Part shown: one piece after another, positions 661-64,000 of the stretch
Layout: the number at the start of each line of letters is the position of its first letter
Numbering within the stretch: position 1 is the first letter of the stretch
Source of the DNA: Frigoribacterium sp. PhB24
Lineage (GTDB): Bacteria > Actinomycetota > Actinomycetes > Actinomycetales > Microbacteriaceae
Length of the DNA stretch: 64,000 nt
Assembly: GCF_003755185.1 (NCBI RefSeq)
Contig: NZ_RKIC01000015.1
Coordinates: forward strand, 158,957 to 222,956
Direction: 5' to 3'
Translations under genes and position numbers: made by a program
Notes under the pieces: generated by a model
Databases searched by the model: none
What the model was told of the DNA's origin: nothing
Seen by the model: the letters and a program-made list of their open reading frames with translations, nothing else

Positions 661-708
661 AGGAGGCGCGCCCGTCCCCACGAGGACGGGCGCGCCTCCT
701 TCGTTCTC
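661..708 (+). terminator. Rho-independent terminator with 17-bp stem
   Basis: Perfect 17-bp stem, arms 661-677 and 684-700, six-base loop CCACGA, followed by TTCGTTCT. The outer part of each arm is the word AGGAGGCGCG and its complement, which recurs through the window (see findings). It closes the aldo/keto reductase gene and separates it from the helicase gene. Confidence 0.85.
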
Positions 709-753
709 GCACGATTCCGGCCCTCGCCGTCGGTGGCCGGAAGGTAGACTGGC

Positions 754-3075
754 GTGCCGACTTTTCCCGAAGGGTACGAACACCTGTTGTCATCCGAGAT
801 CGACCGCGAACGCGCCTACGTGGGCACCCTCTACGACCGCCTCGACGAGCTGAAGGCCGACGCCCGAGTCCGCCTCGAGCGCACCCGCCGCGAGACCGTC
901 GGCGGCAACCACCAGAGCCGCAGTGAGCGCGACGCCTACGCGCGCCTGTACGAAGACACGATCGTCCAGCTGGGCTCGGTCGACGAACGGCTCGCGTTCG
1001 GTCGGCTCGAGCTCGAGACGCCCGACCTGCTCGGCCAGACCGGCGACGTCGACCGTCCGGCCGAGGCGGGCGAGGGCGGGCGCTACCGTTACATCGGCCG
1101 CATCGGCCTGCGTGACGAGGCGCACCACCCGATCCTGCTCGACTGGCGCGTGCCCGGGGCCAGCGCCTTCTACCAGGCGACCGCCGCGACGCCCATGGGG
1201 GCCCGCGCCCGTCGCCACCTGACCCTCGAGGGGCGCACCGTCACCCGCCTCGAGGACGAGGTGTTCGACCCCGACCTGCTCGACCGCGACGACGTCCAGT
1301 TGCAGGGCGAGGGTGCGCTCATGGCCGCGCTGACCGCCCAGCGCACCGGCCGCATGACCGACATCGTCGCCACGATCCAGGGCGAACAGGACCGCATCAT
1401 CCGCTCGCAACTCGACGGCGTGCTCGTCGTGCAGGGCGGTCCCGGCACGGGCAAGACGGCCGTCGCACTGCACCGGGCCGCGTACCTGCTCTACTCGCAC
1501 CGTGACCGGCTCAAGGGATCGGGCGTGCTCGTCGTCGGGCCGTCGAGGTCGTTCCTGCGCTACATCGAACAGGTGCTGCCGTCGCTCGGCGAGAGCGGCG
1601 TCGTCCTGTCGAGCCTCGGCGGCCTGTACCCGGGCATCGAGGCGCAGACCGACGACGCGCCCGACGTCGCCGCCCTCAAGGGCTCCGCCGAGATGGCCGA
1701 GCTGATGCGCCGCGCCGTCCGGTCGCGGCAGATCCGCCCGGCCGAGCCGACGACCATCGACATCAACGGCGAGCGTCTCGTGGTGCGCCCCGAGCTCGTC
1801 GGCGAGGCCATGCGCAAGGCACAGGAGCGGGGCAAGCCGCACAACGTGGCCCGGGTCACGTTCAACAAGGCGGCTCTCTCGGCCCTGACCCGTCAGCTGG
1901 TCGACCAGATGCGCGAGCACGGCACGACGGTCGACGAGTCCGACGAGGCCGTCCTCCGAGAAGACATCCGGCAGTCGTACGACGTGCGCGTCCTGCTCAA
2001 CACCGCCTGGCTTCCGCTGAGCGCCGAGAAGCTCGTCGAAGACCTGTACGCCCGACCGAACTGGCTCGCCTCGATCACCCCGCGCTGGACGCCCGAGCAG
2101 CGCGCCCTGCTGCGGCGCGAGCGCGGGGCGGGCTTCACCGTCTCCGACGTGCCGCTGCTCGACGAGGCCGCCGAGCTGCTCGGCGAGTTCCAGACGGGCG
2201 TCGACCCCGAGCGGCTGGCCCGCAAGGCCCAGCGCAAACGCGACATCGAGAACGCCGAGCGCGCCATCGAGAACATGGGCGTCGAGGGCATGGTCAGCGC
2301 CGAGCAGATCGCCGGCGGCTTCGCCGAGCGCGCCGCGTCCATGACCACGGCCGAGCGGGCCGCGGGCGACCGTACCTGGGCCTTCGGCCACGTCGTGGTC
2401 GACGAGGCGCAAGAGCTCTCGCCCATGCAGTGGCGGCTGCTCTCGCGACGGTGCCCGCTGCGGTCGTTCACCGTCGTCGGCGACATCGCGCAGGCGTCGA
2501 GCCCGGCGTCCGCGTCCTCGTGGGACCGCGCCCTGCAGGCCTTGCTCGGGCGTCGTCGGGGCGGCGGCGCCCAGGGCACGTCGGCCCCGTGGCGGCTCGA
2601 AGAGCTCACCGTCAACTACCGCACCCCGGCGCAGATCGTGGTCTACGCCGAGGGCGTCGCGACGTCGACCGGGCTGCGGATCACCCCGAGCCGGTCGGTG
2701 CGCTCGAGCGAGTGGCCGGTGCGAGAGGTGACCGGCGCCTCCTCGAAGGACGATTTCGTCCGAGCCACGGTCGAGGCCGTCCGGGCCGACCGGGCGATCG
2801 ACGCCGAGGGCACCCTGGCGGTGATCGCGCCCGAGCAGGCCGTCCCGACCCTGGTCGAGGCGCTGTCCGCCGAGTTCGACGGCCTGGTGGCCGCGGGCAC
2901 GGCGTCGCTCACCAGGCCGATCTCGGTGCTGAGCCCCGCGACGTCGAAGGGCCTCGAGTTCGACTCGGTCGTCGTGGTCGACCCCGAGCGCGTGCGCCAG
3001 GCCGGCCGACGCGGCAACGCCAGCCTCTACGTGGCGATGACCCGGCCCACGCAACGCCTCACGGTCGTCTCGTAG
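754..3075 (+). CDS. HelD/HelR-type UvrD-like ATPase acting on RNA polymerase
   Basis: Superfamily 1 helicase-like protein of about 773 residues. Walker A GGPGTGKT is at residues 228-235, Walker B/motif II is VVDEAQELSP, motif III is TVVGDIAQ, and the C-terminal motifs SKGLEF and YVAMTR are present. The N-terminal ERAYVGTLYDRLDEL helix with an insertion before the ATPase core is typical of HelD, which releases stalled RNA polymerase; actinobacterial HelR members also displace rifampicin (family knowledge). Start is uncertain: a TAGACT -10 at 745-750 ends only 3 nt before GTG 754, closer than the 6-8 nt seen at other leaderless genes here, so TTG 787 (protein starting near SSEIDRERAY) is a real alternative. 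Stands alone on its strand. Confidence 0.88.
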   Translation: MPTFPEGYEHLLSSEIDRERAYVGTLYDRLDELKADARVRLERTRRETVGGNHQSRSERDAYARLYEDTIVQLGSVDERLAFGRLELETPDLLGQTGDVDRPAEAGEGGRYRYIGRIGLRDEAHHPILLDWRVPGASAFYQATAATPMGARARRHLTLEGRTVTRLEDEVFDPDLLDRDDVQLQGEGALMAALTAQRTGRMTDIVATIQGEQDRIIRSQLDGVLVVQGGPGTGKTAVALHRAAYLLYSHRDRLKGSGVLVVGPSRSFLRYIEQVLPSLGESGVVLSSLGGLYPGIEAQTDDAPDVAALKGSAEMAELMRRAVRSRQIRPAEPTTIDINGERLVVRPELVGEAMRKAQERGKPHNVARVTFNKAALSALTRQLVDQMREHGTTVDESDEAVLREDIRQSYDVRVLLNTAWLPLSAEKLVEDLYARPNWLASITPRWTPEQRALLRRERGAGFTVSDVPLLDEAAELLGEFQTGVDPERLARKAQRKRDIENAERAIENMGVEGMVSAEQIAGGFAERAASMTTAERAAGDRTWAFGHVVVDEAQELSPMQWRLLSRRCPLRSFTVVGDIAQASSPASASSWDRALQALLGRRRGGGAQGTSAPWRLEELTVNYRTPAQIVVYAEGVATSTGLRITPSRSVRSSEWPVREVTGASSKDDFVRATVEAVRADRAIDAEGTLAVIAPEQAVPTLVEALSAEFDGLVAAGTASLTRPISVLSPATSKGLEFDSVVVVDPERVRQAGRRGNASLYVAMTRPTQRLTVVS

Positions 3076-3084
3076 GCCGGGCCG

Positions 3085-3101
3085 GTCGGCAGCGAGCCGA
3101 C
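3085..3101. terminator. Weak hairpin between convergent genes
   Basis: GTCGGC and GCCGAC arms around loop AGCGA lie between the 3' ends of the helicase gene and the His-rich protein gene. There is no T tract, so a terminator role is only suggested by position. Confidence 0.3.
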
Positions 3102-62292: not shown

Positions 62293-63755
62293 CCGACGCG
62301 ATCGGGTTCGGCGACGTGCCCGGCAAGAACGAGCGCGCGGGCGAGGCGGGTGCCCTGTGGGGCGGCCGCTTCGCCTCCGGGCCGTCCGCCGAACTCGCGG
62401 CGCTGAGCAAGTCGACGCAGTTCGACTGGCAGCTGGCGTCGTACGACATCGCGGGGTCCCGTGCGCACGCCCGGGCCCTGGCCGCGGCGGGGTACCTCGA
62501 CGGTTCCGAGCTCGACGCGATGATCTCGGCGCTCGACCGGCTCGAGTCGGACGTGCTCGACGGCACGTTCACCGCGGCCGAGTCCGACGAAGACGTGCAC
62601 TCCGCGCTCGAGCGAGGGTTGATCGGCATCGCGGGCGTCGAACTCGGGGGCAAGCTGAGGGCGGGGCGCAGCCGCAACGACCAGATCGCCACACTCGTGC
62701 GCTTGTACCTGCGTGACCACGCCCGGGTCATCGGTCGGCAGGTCGTCGACCTGGTCGACGCCATCGCGGGGCAGGCGACGGCCCACCCGACGGCGGTCAT
62801 GCCCGGCCGCACGCACCTCCAGCACGCCCAGCCGGTATTGCTCGCGCATCACCTGCTCGCCCACGCCTGGCCTCTGGTCCGTGACCTCGAGCGCTTGCGC
62901 GACTGGTCGCGCCGGGCCGGCGCCTCGCCCTACGGTGCGGGTGCCCTCGCGGGCAGCTCGCTGGGGCTGGATCCGCTGCTCGTGGCGACGGATCTCGGTT
63001 TCGACCGCACGACCGAGAACTCGATCGACGCGACCGCCAGTCGCGACGTGGTGTCCGAGTTCGCCTTCGTCACGGCGTCCATCGGCATCGACCTCTCCCG
63101 GCTCGCCGAAGAGATCATCCTCTGGAACACTCGCGAATTCGGCTTCGTCCGTCTGCACGACGCGTTCTCGACCGGGTCGAGCATCATGCCGCAGAAGAAG
63201 AACCCCGACATAGCCGAGCTGGCCCGCGGCAAGTCCGGGCGCCTGATCGGCAACCTGACGGGTCTGCTCGCGACGCTCAAGGGGCTGCCGCTGGCGTACA
63301 ACCGCGACCTGCAAGAAGACAAAGAACCGGTGTTCGACTCCGTGTCACAGCTCGAGGTGCTGTTGCCGGCCTTCACGGGCATGGTGGCGACGCTGGACTT
63401 CGACGAGCAGCGCATGGCCGCTCTCGCTCCGCAGGGGTTCTCGTTGGCGACCGACGTCGCCGAGTGGCTGGTCCGACAGGGCGTGCCCTTCCGCGACGCG
63501 CACGAGATCAGCGGCGAGCTGGTCCGGTTCTGCGAGCAGCACGACCTCGAGTTGCACGAGCCCAGCGACGAGCAGTATGGGTCGATCTCGGCACATCTCA
63601 CGCCCGAGATCCGGCCGGTCCTGACGGTCGAGGGATCGATCGCCAGCCGTCGCGGTGCCGGCGGCACGGCTCCCGAGCGCGTCGCCGAGCAGCTCGCGCA
63701 GCTGACCGAGCAGATGCGTCACCTCGTCCAGGCCCTCGCCCCGGCGGCGGCATGA
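62289..63755 (+). CDS. argH: Argininosuccinate lyase
   Basis: Predicted 488 residues. [35 protein letters not shown] and the fumarase/aspartase signature [12 protein letters not shown] near 297-308 are present. Produces arginine and fumarate. GTG overlaps argG; the next small gene starts on its stop (ATGA). Confidence 0.96.
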
Positions 63756-63889
63756 GTCGTCGACGAGCGGGGTCAGGCGACGACCGGTCGGTCCGCACCT
63801 GGGTCGTGCCGGTCGTCGTCGCGATCTCCGTGGCGGTGCTCGTCGCCGTCGCGGTGATCGCGGTCGCCAGCGGCCAGCGCTTCTTCTGA
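63752..63889 (+). CDS. Small single-helix membrane protein
   Basis: Predicted 45 residues: a basic/polar head ([16 protein letters not shown]) and one hydrophobic helix ([20 protein letters not shown]). Overlap with the argH stop (ATGA) and correct topology make it a credible gene. A longer in-frame reading inside argH is not. No family recognised. Confidence 0.55.
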
Positions 63890-63920
63890 ACGCGACGGTC
63901 GCAGTGAGCCCGGGGGAGCG

Positions 63921-64000
63921 ATGACGACGACATCCGCTGACGACGTGCTGGCGGCGTTGCTGGCCGAGCCGGCCCTGGCCGTGGCACCGCGCCTCCTCGG
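63921..64000 (+). CDS. DNA-3-methyladenine glycosylase, 3' end outside the window
   Basis: Only 26 complete codons are visible. The end of this segment, LAEPALAVAPRLLG, fits the N-terminus of Mpg/AAG-type 3-methyladenine glycosylases (pattern ARPxLEVAPxLLG), a gene often found after argH in related actinobacteria. ATG follows GGGGGAGCG. An antisense AGGAGGCGCG word sits at 63988-63997. Call rests on a short match plus context. Confidence 0.6.
   Translation, partial: MTTTSADDVLAALLAEPALAVAPRLL

Follow-up and report, generated by a model that had tools for sequence, protein, structure and literature searches.

A dispersed ten-base word of Frigoribacterium as a candidate self-DNA uptake signal in the Microbacteriaceae

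What role could a ten-base word play that recurs along an actinobacterial chromosome far above chance? The question was raised by a stretch of 64,000 nucleotides from Frigoribacterium sp. PhB24 (referred to here as the window; it lies on contig C7 of the genome that we call G000), in which the word AGGAGGCGCG had been noticed as a dispersed signal enriched between genes. The original prediction considered a protein-binding site, a building block of terminators or a small mobile palindromic unit, and knew of no described role. Based on the results presented below, we favour with modest confidence the reading that AGGAGGCGCG, with its core GGAGGCGC, would be the Frigoribacterium dialect of a self-DNA uptake signal in the Microbacteriaceae, similar to the DNA uptake sequence (DUS) of Neisseriaceae and the uptake signal sequence (USS) of Pasteurellaceae. 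We prefer this reading because of the copy number of the word, its lack of strand polarity, the occurrence of a word per genus, the chance level in phages, the maintenance of the sites and the inverted pairs; the phage, conservation and pair results each concern mainly one word and not all words of the family.

Abundance, context and conservation of the word in Frigoribacterium

The window contained 15 exact copies of AGGAGGCGCG, seven on the plus strand and eight on the minus strand, all at the places originally listed (Table 1). Dinucleotide shuffles of the window (n = 100) held 0.58 copies on average and five at most, which agrees with the earlier estimate of fewer than one by chance. When one mismatch was allowed, the window revealed 37 sites against a shuffle mean of 18.5. 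The whole genome (3,457,365 bases) carried 1,342 copies, 680 on the plus and 662 on the minus strand, compared with 15 (5 + 10) copies of the reversed word, in which the same letters are read backwards and which served as the composition control for genome counts. The window was poorer than the genome as a whole, since about 25 copies would be present at the mean genome density. In 463 kb of G000, the window included, 192 copies were observed against 3.75 and 3.97 expected under Markov models of order 3 and order 4, respectively, and AGGAGGCGCG and its one-base shift GGAGGCGCGG were the two most over-represented 10-mers of this sample. A codon-aware null was likewise far exceeded: the 571 predicted genes of the G000 sample held 155 copies against 16.6 (maximum 29) in 60 synonymous-codon shuffles, while the reversed word was found twice against 9.8 expected. 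The excess over the synonymous expectation was 9.3-fold in G000 and 5.9-fold in its congener G014.

Gene calls made with our own script assigned 155 of the 261 copies in 643 kb of G000 to genes and 104 to intergenic DNA, with 2 on gene edges. The intergenic density was 3.65 times the coding density in G000 and 7.0 times in G014. In the window, eight of the 15 copies lay clearly between genes, as had been claimed, and a further one at the window end was uncertain. The original prediction would have been abandoned if the counts had fallen to a codon-aware Markov expectation or if the intergenic enrichment had stayed within the window; in the sampled DNA, the counts were far above the Markov and codon-aware expectations and the enrichment persisted over 643 kb. 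The genic copies were spread over six reading frames in G000 and five in G014, and frame preferences were present among them. Strand use was locally balanced in G000, with 130/131 copies over 643 kb, 39/46 over 223 contiguous kb and 50/39 over 200 contiguous kb. These counts support the earlier view of a dispersed, non-polar signal unlike Chi or the FtsK orienting polar sequences (KOPS), and a KOPS-type signal was rejected on the same counts.

The base 3' of AGGAGGCGCG was G in 77% of the 191 copies with full flanks, and weak flank preferences were found for A at offset -5 and for T at offsets 12 and 17, where offset 0 is the base with which the word begins. Variants at the end bases were enriched, with 51 copies of CGGAGGCGCG against 6.1, 47 of GGGAGGCGCG against 3.5 and 29 of AGGAGGCGCT against 1.4. 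Because these end variants were enriched and the one-mismatch variants of the core were not, the unit appears to be approximately GGAGGCGC with tolerated edges. Where neighbouring copies in G000 were less than 60 bp apart, 18 pairs were inverted and 3 were direct (one-sided p of about 0.0007 for at least 18 of 21).

To follow individual sites, the window was aligned with approximately 68-80 kb from each of five congeners. The 15 window copies were perfect at 11 sites in G013, 11 in G009, 9 in G006, 2 in G010 and 6 in G014. The imperfect sites in the three closest congeners were aligned without a gap and showed 1-3 differences, apart from two copies that were unaligned in G006; several window sites lay in gapped or unaligned DNA in G010 and G014. 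When the copies of the congeners were traced back to the window, 2 of 16 in G013, 8 of 23 in G009 and 5 of 16 in G006 were found in unaligned DNA, part of which extends beyond the window. The core was conserved above 8-mers of the same composition in all five congeners (0.75 versus 0.56 in G013, 0.81 versus 0.46 in G009, 0.74 versus 0.41 in G006, 0.46 versus 0.24 in G010 and 0.60 versus 0.21 in G014), with Fisher p values from 0.017 for the weakest comparison to 3e-5; this comparison covers 36 core sites of one 64-kb region, counts aligned sites only, and its five congeners are not independent. The flanks at 6-100 bases from the sites were conserved about as well as the controls and showed no flank divergence of the DUS kind. 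The substitutions without a gap, together with a core conserved on ordinary flanks, indicated that the word itself is held in place rather than inserted as a unit.

Words across the family and the competence machinery

By a conserved protein of the window, the nearest named relatives were Frigoribacterium sp. PhB116 (92%), F. endophyticum (90%) and Frigoribacterium sp. PhB160 (90%). All 16 Frigoribacterium genomes searched carried the word, with 513-1,570 copies of AGGAGGCGCG and 10-51 of the reversed word on both strands. Among 292 Microbacteriaceae genomes outside the genus, the highest count was 216 in G069 (reversed word 75), whose first 100 kb contained 1 copy, followed by 124 in G129 (reversed word 127). 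De novo counts in 100-kb samples revealed words of a second type, CGGATGCCG, with 38 copies against 4.2 in G023 and a weaker excess in G017 and G016; the G016 sample contained 19, below the roughly 50 implied by its genome total. Among 299 family genomes, CGGATGCCG peaked in G155 (1,534 + 1,550 copies; reversed word 65 + 97), G077 (1,288 + 1,248; 34 + 38) and G040 (1,164 + 1,156; 57 + 49). When one genome per genus was considered, 45 of 84 other genera had at least 5 times as many copies of it as of the reversed word, and 24 had at least 10 times as many; in seven of seven Frigoribacterium genomes the ratio stayed at 0.75-1.8. Elsewhere in the order, 139 genomes from 19 families mostly had ratios under about 3, and the highest, close to 4.5, came from two genomes of family f4. 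The excess of CGGATGCCG over the synonymous expectation was 3.0-9.9-fold in five genomes, and its strands in a 100-kb sample of G120 were 32/26.

We also found a third word, AGGATCCG, in G019, where it occurred 55 times against 7.6 in 100 kb, 898 + 837 times genome-wide and 40 times against 4.0 (10-fold) in synonymous shuffles. It was counted 121-408 times per strand in the five other genomes of genus g5, and raw counts were raised in genus g35 too; the reversed word is a poor control in this case because it contains CTAG. A switch of dialect within a genus, suggested by raw AGGATCCG counts in G177, was dropped, as a 40-kb sample held 10 copies against 7.0 expected. Other top words were GATCCGGA in G110 (27 versus 0.5 in 100 kb) and CACCGATG in the reduced 1.43-Mb genome of G025 (47 versus 9.8; L242-L246), which may be a close relative of Rhodoluna. 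AGGAGGCGCG, CGGATGCCG and AGGATCCG all contain GGA[TG][GC]C, and from this common motif the three main words may be read as one lineage of dialects.

Phage DNA was compared for CGGATGCCG. Six Microbacterium phages (185 kb) contained 4 copies against 5.2 expected, which is the chance level, and 31 loci of Microbacterium isolates (640 kb, counted without nine loci from metagenome-assembled genomes) contained 212 against 38. Three of these phages, Sharkboy, AnnaLie and CroZenni, belong to one genus, and the content of guanine plus cytosine (GC) was 0.67-0.70 in four of the six and below 0.6 in two.

ComEC was found in all 16 Frigoribacterium genomes and in 39 of 40 relatives, and in G000, where alone this was checked, ComEA (SLBB and helix-hairpin-helix domains) adjoins ComEC. 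The pilus cluster of G000 comprises PilB (T2SSE and MshEN domains), a second T2SSE protein that its position suggests to be PilT, PilC (T2SSF), two N_methyl pilins, a prepilin peptidase and PilM. A T2SSE ATPase was present in 42 of 42 genomes tried, and a Tad/Flp-type locus was found in both genomes looked at, G000 and G014, the TadE of G014 scoring under the curated cut-off. PilM was detected in 13 of 16 Frigoribacterium genomes and 145 of 299 family genomes; a G087 match (E 1e-3, under the family cut-off) was scored as absent. The median ratio of CGGATGCCG to its reversed word was 7.3 in PilM-positive genera (n = 44) and 3.1 in PilM-negative ones (n = 40; p 7e-4), with p 0.05 when the comparison was limited to genomes of at least 2.4 Mb.

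Copies in the window and other over-represented words

The positions of the copies in the window are collected in Table 1. Scans for tRNA genes and Rfam families detected nothing in the window.

Table 1. Copies of AGGAGGCGCG and one mismatched copy in the 64-kb window, with their genic context.
Element	Positions	Strand	Context
AGGAGGCGCG	661..670	+	intergenic; left arm of inverted pair with 691-700; hairpin of 17 pairs, -40.8 kcal/mol
AGGAGGCGCG	691..700	-	intergenic; right arm of the 661/691 inverted pair
AGGAGGCGCG	7915..7924	+	arm of inverted pair, between divergent genes; fold -36.3 kcal/mol
AGGAGGCGCG	7943..7952	-	second arm of the 7915/7943 inverted pair
AGGAGGCGCG	12271..12280	+	within pnp-like gene 10575-12848 (RNase_PH/PNPase/S1 domains)
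AGGAGGCGCG	12937..12946	+	intergenic, downstream of pnp-like gene
AGGAGGCGCG	24182..24191	-	within predicted gene
AGGAGGCGCG	29467..29476	-	within predicted gene
AGGAGGCGCG	35196..35205	-	within predicted gene
AGGAGGCGCG	38524..38533	+	within predicted gene; aligned G010 word has three differences, no gap
AGGAGGCGCG	43236..43245	-	intergenic, upstream of His_biosynth gene
AGGAGGCGCG	44166..44175	-	within predicted gene; same place occupied in L087 and L088
AGGAGGCGCT (one mismatch)	47813..47822	-	opposed to 47831
AGGAGGCGCG	47831..47840	+	intergenic, downstream of SpoU methylase gene; hairpin z -1.65
AGGAGGCGCG	52020..52029	+	intergenic, upstream of pheS-like gene (tRNA-synt_2d)
AGGAGGCGCG	63988..63997	-	window end; probably intergenic, uncertain

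Several other words were observed in the same samples. In G000, AGGATCCG, which holds a BamHI-like site, was strongly avoided in the coding sample (no copy, whereas synonymous shuffles predict 12.1), perhaps as a result of restriction. TCGGCATC occurred 159 times against 54.6 in the window plus L031-L050 and is possibly a relic of the Microbacteriaceae GGCATC word. At L078 7592-14813, several small genes in a row contained no AGGAGGCGCG; going by order and size, they are perhaps the ribosomal-protein operon. In 100 kb of G110 (L252-L256), the palindrome GATCCGGATC was present 14 times against 0.1 expected, and together with GATCCGGA of the same genome it represents a possible further dialect or protein site. 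CTCCCCCG or its complement was over-represented in G019 (29 versus 6.0), G110 (19 versus 3.4) and G014 (25 versus 5.5) (L222-L226, L252-L256 and L270-L274). In G059 (contig C1 1-100000, L265-L269), 14 copies of TCTCGATACGC against about 0 expected, accompanied by GGCTACTCGACCAGC-like words, look like a dispersed repeat similar to repetitive extragenic palindromes (REP). In 30 kb of G134 (L262-L263), TAGTACTA was found 12 times against 0.2, and CGGATGCCG in this genome was below its reversed control (5 + 5 versus 28 + 27). The highly iterated palindrome HIP1 of cyanobacteria is a very abundant short word of its clade; AGGAGGCGCG is similar to HIP1 in its abundance within a clade, although unlike HIP1 it is not palindromic. 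A word of G088 that resembles this palindrome, CGCGATCGCG, was counted 38 times against 7.8 (L232-L236).

Weighing the proposed uptake signal against its rivals

Under the favoured reading, a DNA-binding component of the competence apparatus at the cell surface (ComEA, a Tad/Flp or type IV minor pilin, or another receptor) would prefer fragments with the word. Alleles that carry it would then enter through ComEC and recombine more often than others, and this uptake bias could create and maintain the word across the shared genome. If the preference of the receptor shifted in a lineage, the word would follow, which may give rise to the dialects of genera. Close inverted pairs may serve secondarily as hairpins or terminators. 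We hold more tentatively the wider proposal that Microbacteriaceae recognise their own DNA in natural transformation by genus-specific words, at least partly by means of Tad/Flp pili or ComEA and not of a PilM-type pilus; this would imply a novel type of receptor.

We compared the word with the known systems and found the pattern to be close to that of Neisseriaceae DUS. According to a 2025 article (PMC12616744), the use of short enriched words to discriminate own from foreign DNA when it is bound is known from no families other than Neisseriaceae and Pasteurellaceae. Eight dialects of DUS are described in PMC3630211. In PMC2397512, terminators are reported to be formed by DUS in inverted pairs, and strong conservation of DUS is described for those regions of the core genome that are permissive. 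The Frigoribacterium word shares with DUS a length of about 10 bases, a copy number of the order of one to several thousand, dialects within a family, conserved sites and close inverted pairs. In contrast to DUS, the host is a Gram-positive member of the Actinomycetota, no ComP-like receptor is known, and not all of the genomes have a PilM-type pilus; the core showed no enrichment of one-mismatch forms here, and the more divergent flanks reported for DUS in the accessible text of PMC2397512 were not seen around AGGAGGCGCG. The USS of Pasteurellaceae has a nine-base core, with Hin and Apl types by clade, and its receptor is predicted to be a minor pilin (PMC12616744, in the portion available). 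The extra preferences at spaced flank positions of AGGAGGCGCG resemble those of USS, except that they are weak; unlike in either of these systems, the uptake role here is one that we infer. In Micrococcus luteus, transformation depends on the tad cluster and comEA/comEC, as described in the available parts of PMC8467076 and PMC6370729. This species is similar to our genus as a member of the Actinomycetota with comEA/comEC and a tad cluster; it differs in that the available part of PMC8467076 mentions no uptake sequence.

The statement that no role had been described was correct in that the searchable literature contained none for AGGAGGCGCG, whose matches were all unrelated by title; it did not anticipate the close match to Neisseriaceae DUS. 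The matches listed for CGGATGCCG also look unrelated, and no words of this type were reported for Microbacteriaceae among the titles and abstract starts of the matches listed, a scope that lies outside subscription journals and preprints. We take Rhodoluna lacicola and Aurantimicrobium photophilum to be Microbacteriaceae. These freshwater Actinobacteria are naturally transformable according to the available text of PMC11577799.

A number of observations weigh against the uptake reading. The 24 one-mismatch variants of the core summed to 69 copies against 90.5 expected, the larger single exceptions being G to T at position 5 (6 versus 1.6) and C to G at position 7 (8 versus 2.8), so that no cloud of decaying sites is visible. 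Local GC tracks the density of AGGAGGCGCG; the first 20 kb of contig C2, where genes up to about 15 kb, catabolic ones among them, have a GC of 0.64-0.69, contained no copy, and few are expected there because the GC is low. Small counts of AGGAGGCGCG above the reversed word were found outside the genus (52/14 in G023 and 41/13 in G132). Unlike AGGAGGCGCG, CGGATGCCG is mostly genic, with one dominant frame and an intergenic ratio of 0.3-2.1, and 500 kb from five genomes held two close pairs of it, one inverted and the other direct. Strands were lopsided in 100-kb samples for AGGATCCG in G019 (36/19), CACCGATG in G025 (31/16) and CGGATGCCG in G040 (27/40), and samples of G031, G028 and G177 yielded no trusted word. 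As for the machinery, ComEC is nearly universal, so its presence does not discriminate. G002, G007 and G014 lack PilM and the MshEN-type PilB, yet contain 1,204, 1,249 and 1,492 copies of AGGAGGCGCG, and 14 of the 40 PilM-negative genera reach at least 5 times the reversed word for CGGATGCCG. A PilM-type pilus was therefore rejected as a strict requirement. No receptor was found for the word, and a single literature search on natural competence in Frigoribacterium found no paper.

The main rivals of the uptake signal are a chromosome-organising protein and a Chi-like signal. In the former case, the word would be bound by an abundant chromosome-organising or regulatory protein, such as a nucleoid-associated protein, an SMC loader or a global regulator, whose specificity differs between genera. 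The protein-binding site of the original prediction is partly supported in this respect, as the data are compatible with it: the copies are dispersed, non-polar, enriched between genes and conserved above composition-matched words, and the word is kept in genomes without a PilM-type pilus. We nevertheless regard this explanation as unlikely, because over half of the copies are genic and fall in five (G014) or six (G000) frames, which would be costly for a regulator, because the replacement of more than 1,000 sites between genera would be hard without a drive, and because no partner protein was identified.

Chi words are short, abundant and host-specific, differ between genera, are strand-polar and are not enriched between genes. 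A Chi-like hotspot, read by an enzyme of the RecBCD, AddAB or AdnAB type in double-strand break repair and diverged between genera, would fit the chance level of CGGATGCCG in phages, the mainly genic position of CGGATGCCG and the lopsided strands of the words in G019, G025 and G040. AGGAGGCGCG is similar to Chi as a short, abundant and host-specific word; in contrast to Chi, it is balanced between strands in all three local counts, as is CGGATGCCG in G120, and its intergenic enrichment in G000 and G014 and its inverted pairs do not agree with such a function. We consider this explanation somewhat less probable still than the chromosome-organising protein.

Restriction sites are normally avoided and not enriched, and AGGAGGCGCG is not palindromic; a methyltransferase motif or a restriction-like self-marking system is thus improbable, even though short words that differ between genera, among them GGATCC- and GATCCGGA-like ones, would suit it.

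The word does build hairpins, and to this extent the suggestion of a terminator building block was justified. Of the three inverted pairs first claimed, 661/691 and 7915/7943 are exact, while the third, 47813/47831, has one mismatched arm. The 655-712 hairpin formed by the first pair was far more stable than shuffled sequences (z -7.9), the second pair less markedly so (z -2.8), and the fold of the imperfect pair was not clearly more stable than shuffles; the predominance of inverted over direct close pairs points in the same direction. As a main role, terminators are very improbable, since at most 36 of the 261 copies belong to inverted pairs under 60 bp and the majority are genic. Most copies are single or genic, which does not fit hairpins with a T-run at gene ends; moreover, the 7915/7943 pair lies between divergent genes, and a terminator scan of positions 1-20000 reported neither exact pair.

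An origin from bias in codons, dipeptides or mutation, for which the frame preferences and the leading frame of CGGATGCCG could be cited, appears just as improbable: the excess survives synonymous shuffles for AGGAGGCGCG, CGGATGCCG and AGGATCCG, Frigoribacterium shows enrichment in non-coding DNA, and CGGATGCCG is at chance level in phages, most of which are GC-rich. Finally, the small mobile palindromic unit (similar to REP, to the repeat unit of pneumococcus or to miniature inverted-repeat transposable elements) can practically be set aside despite the dispersed, partly intergenic copies and some inverted pairs, because no longer common unit extends beyond about 12 bases plus weak preferences and because the aligned gains and losses in the three closest congeners, some sites being unaligned, are ungapped substitutions.

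If the uptake reading is true, the Microbacteriaceae would bring the number of families with uptake sequences to three and would be the first of them that is not Gram-negative; a Gram-positive family with changing words would point to at least a third origin of such signals. The family would allow comparative tests of the origin of dialects, of species barriers and of the surface protein that reads the words where the outer membrane is lacking. Genetic work on laboratory strains of Microbacteriaceae could also benefit if DNA with the right word enters better.

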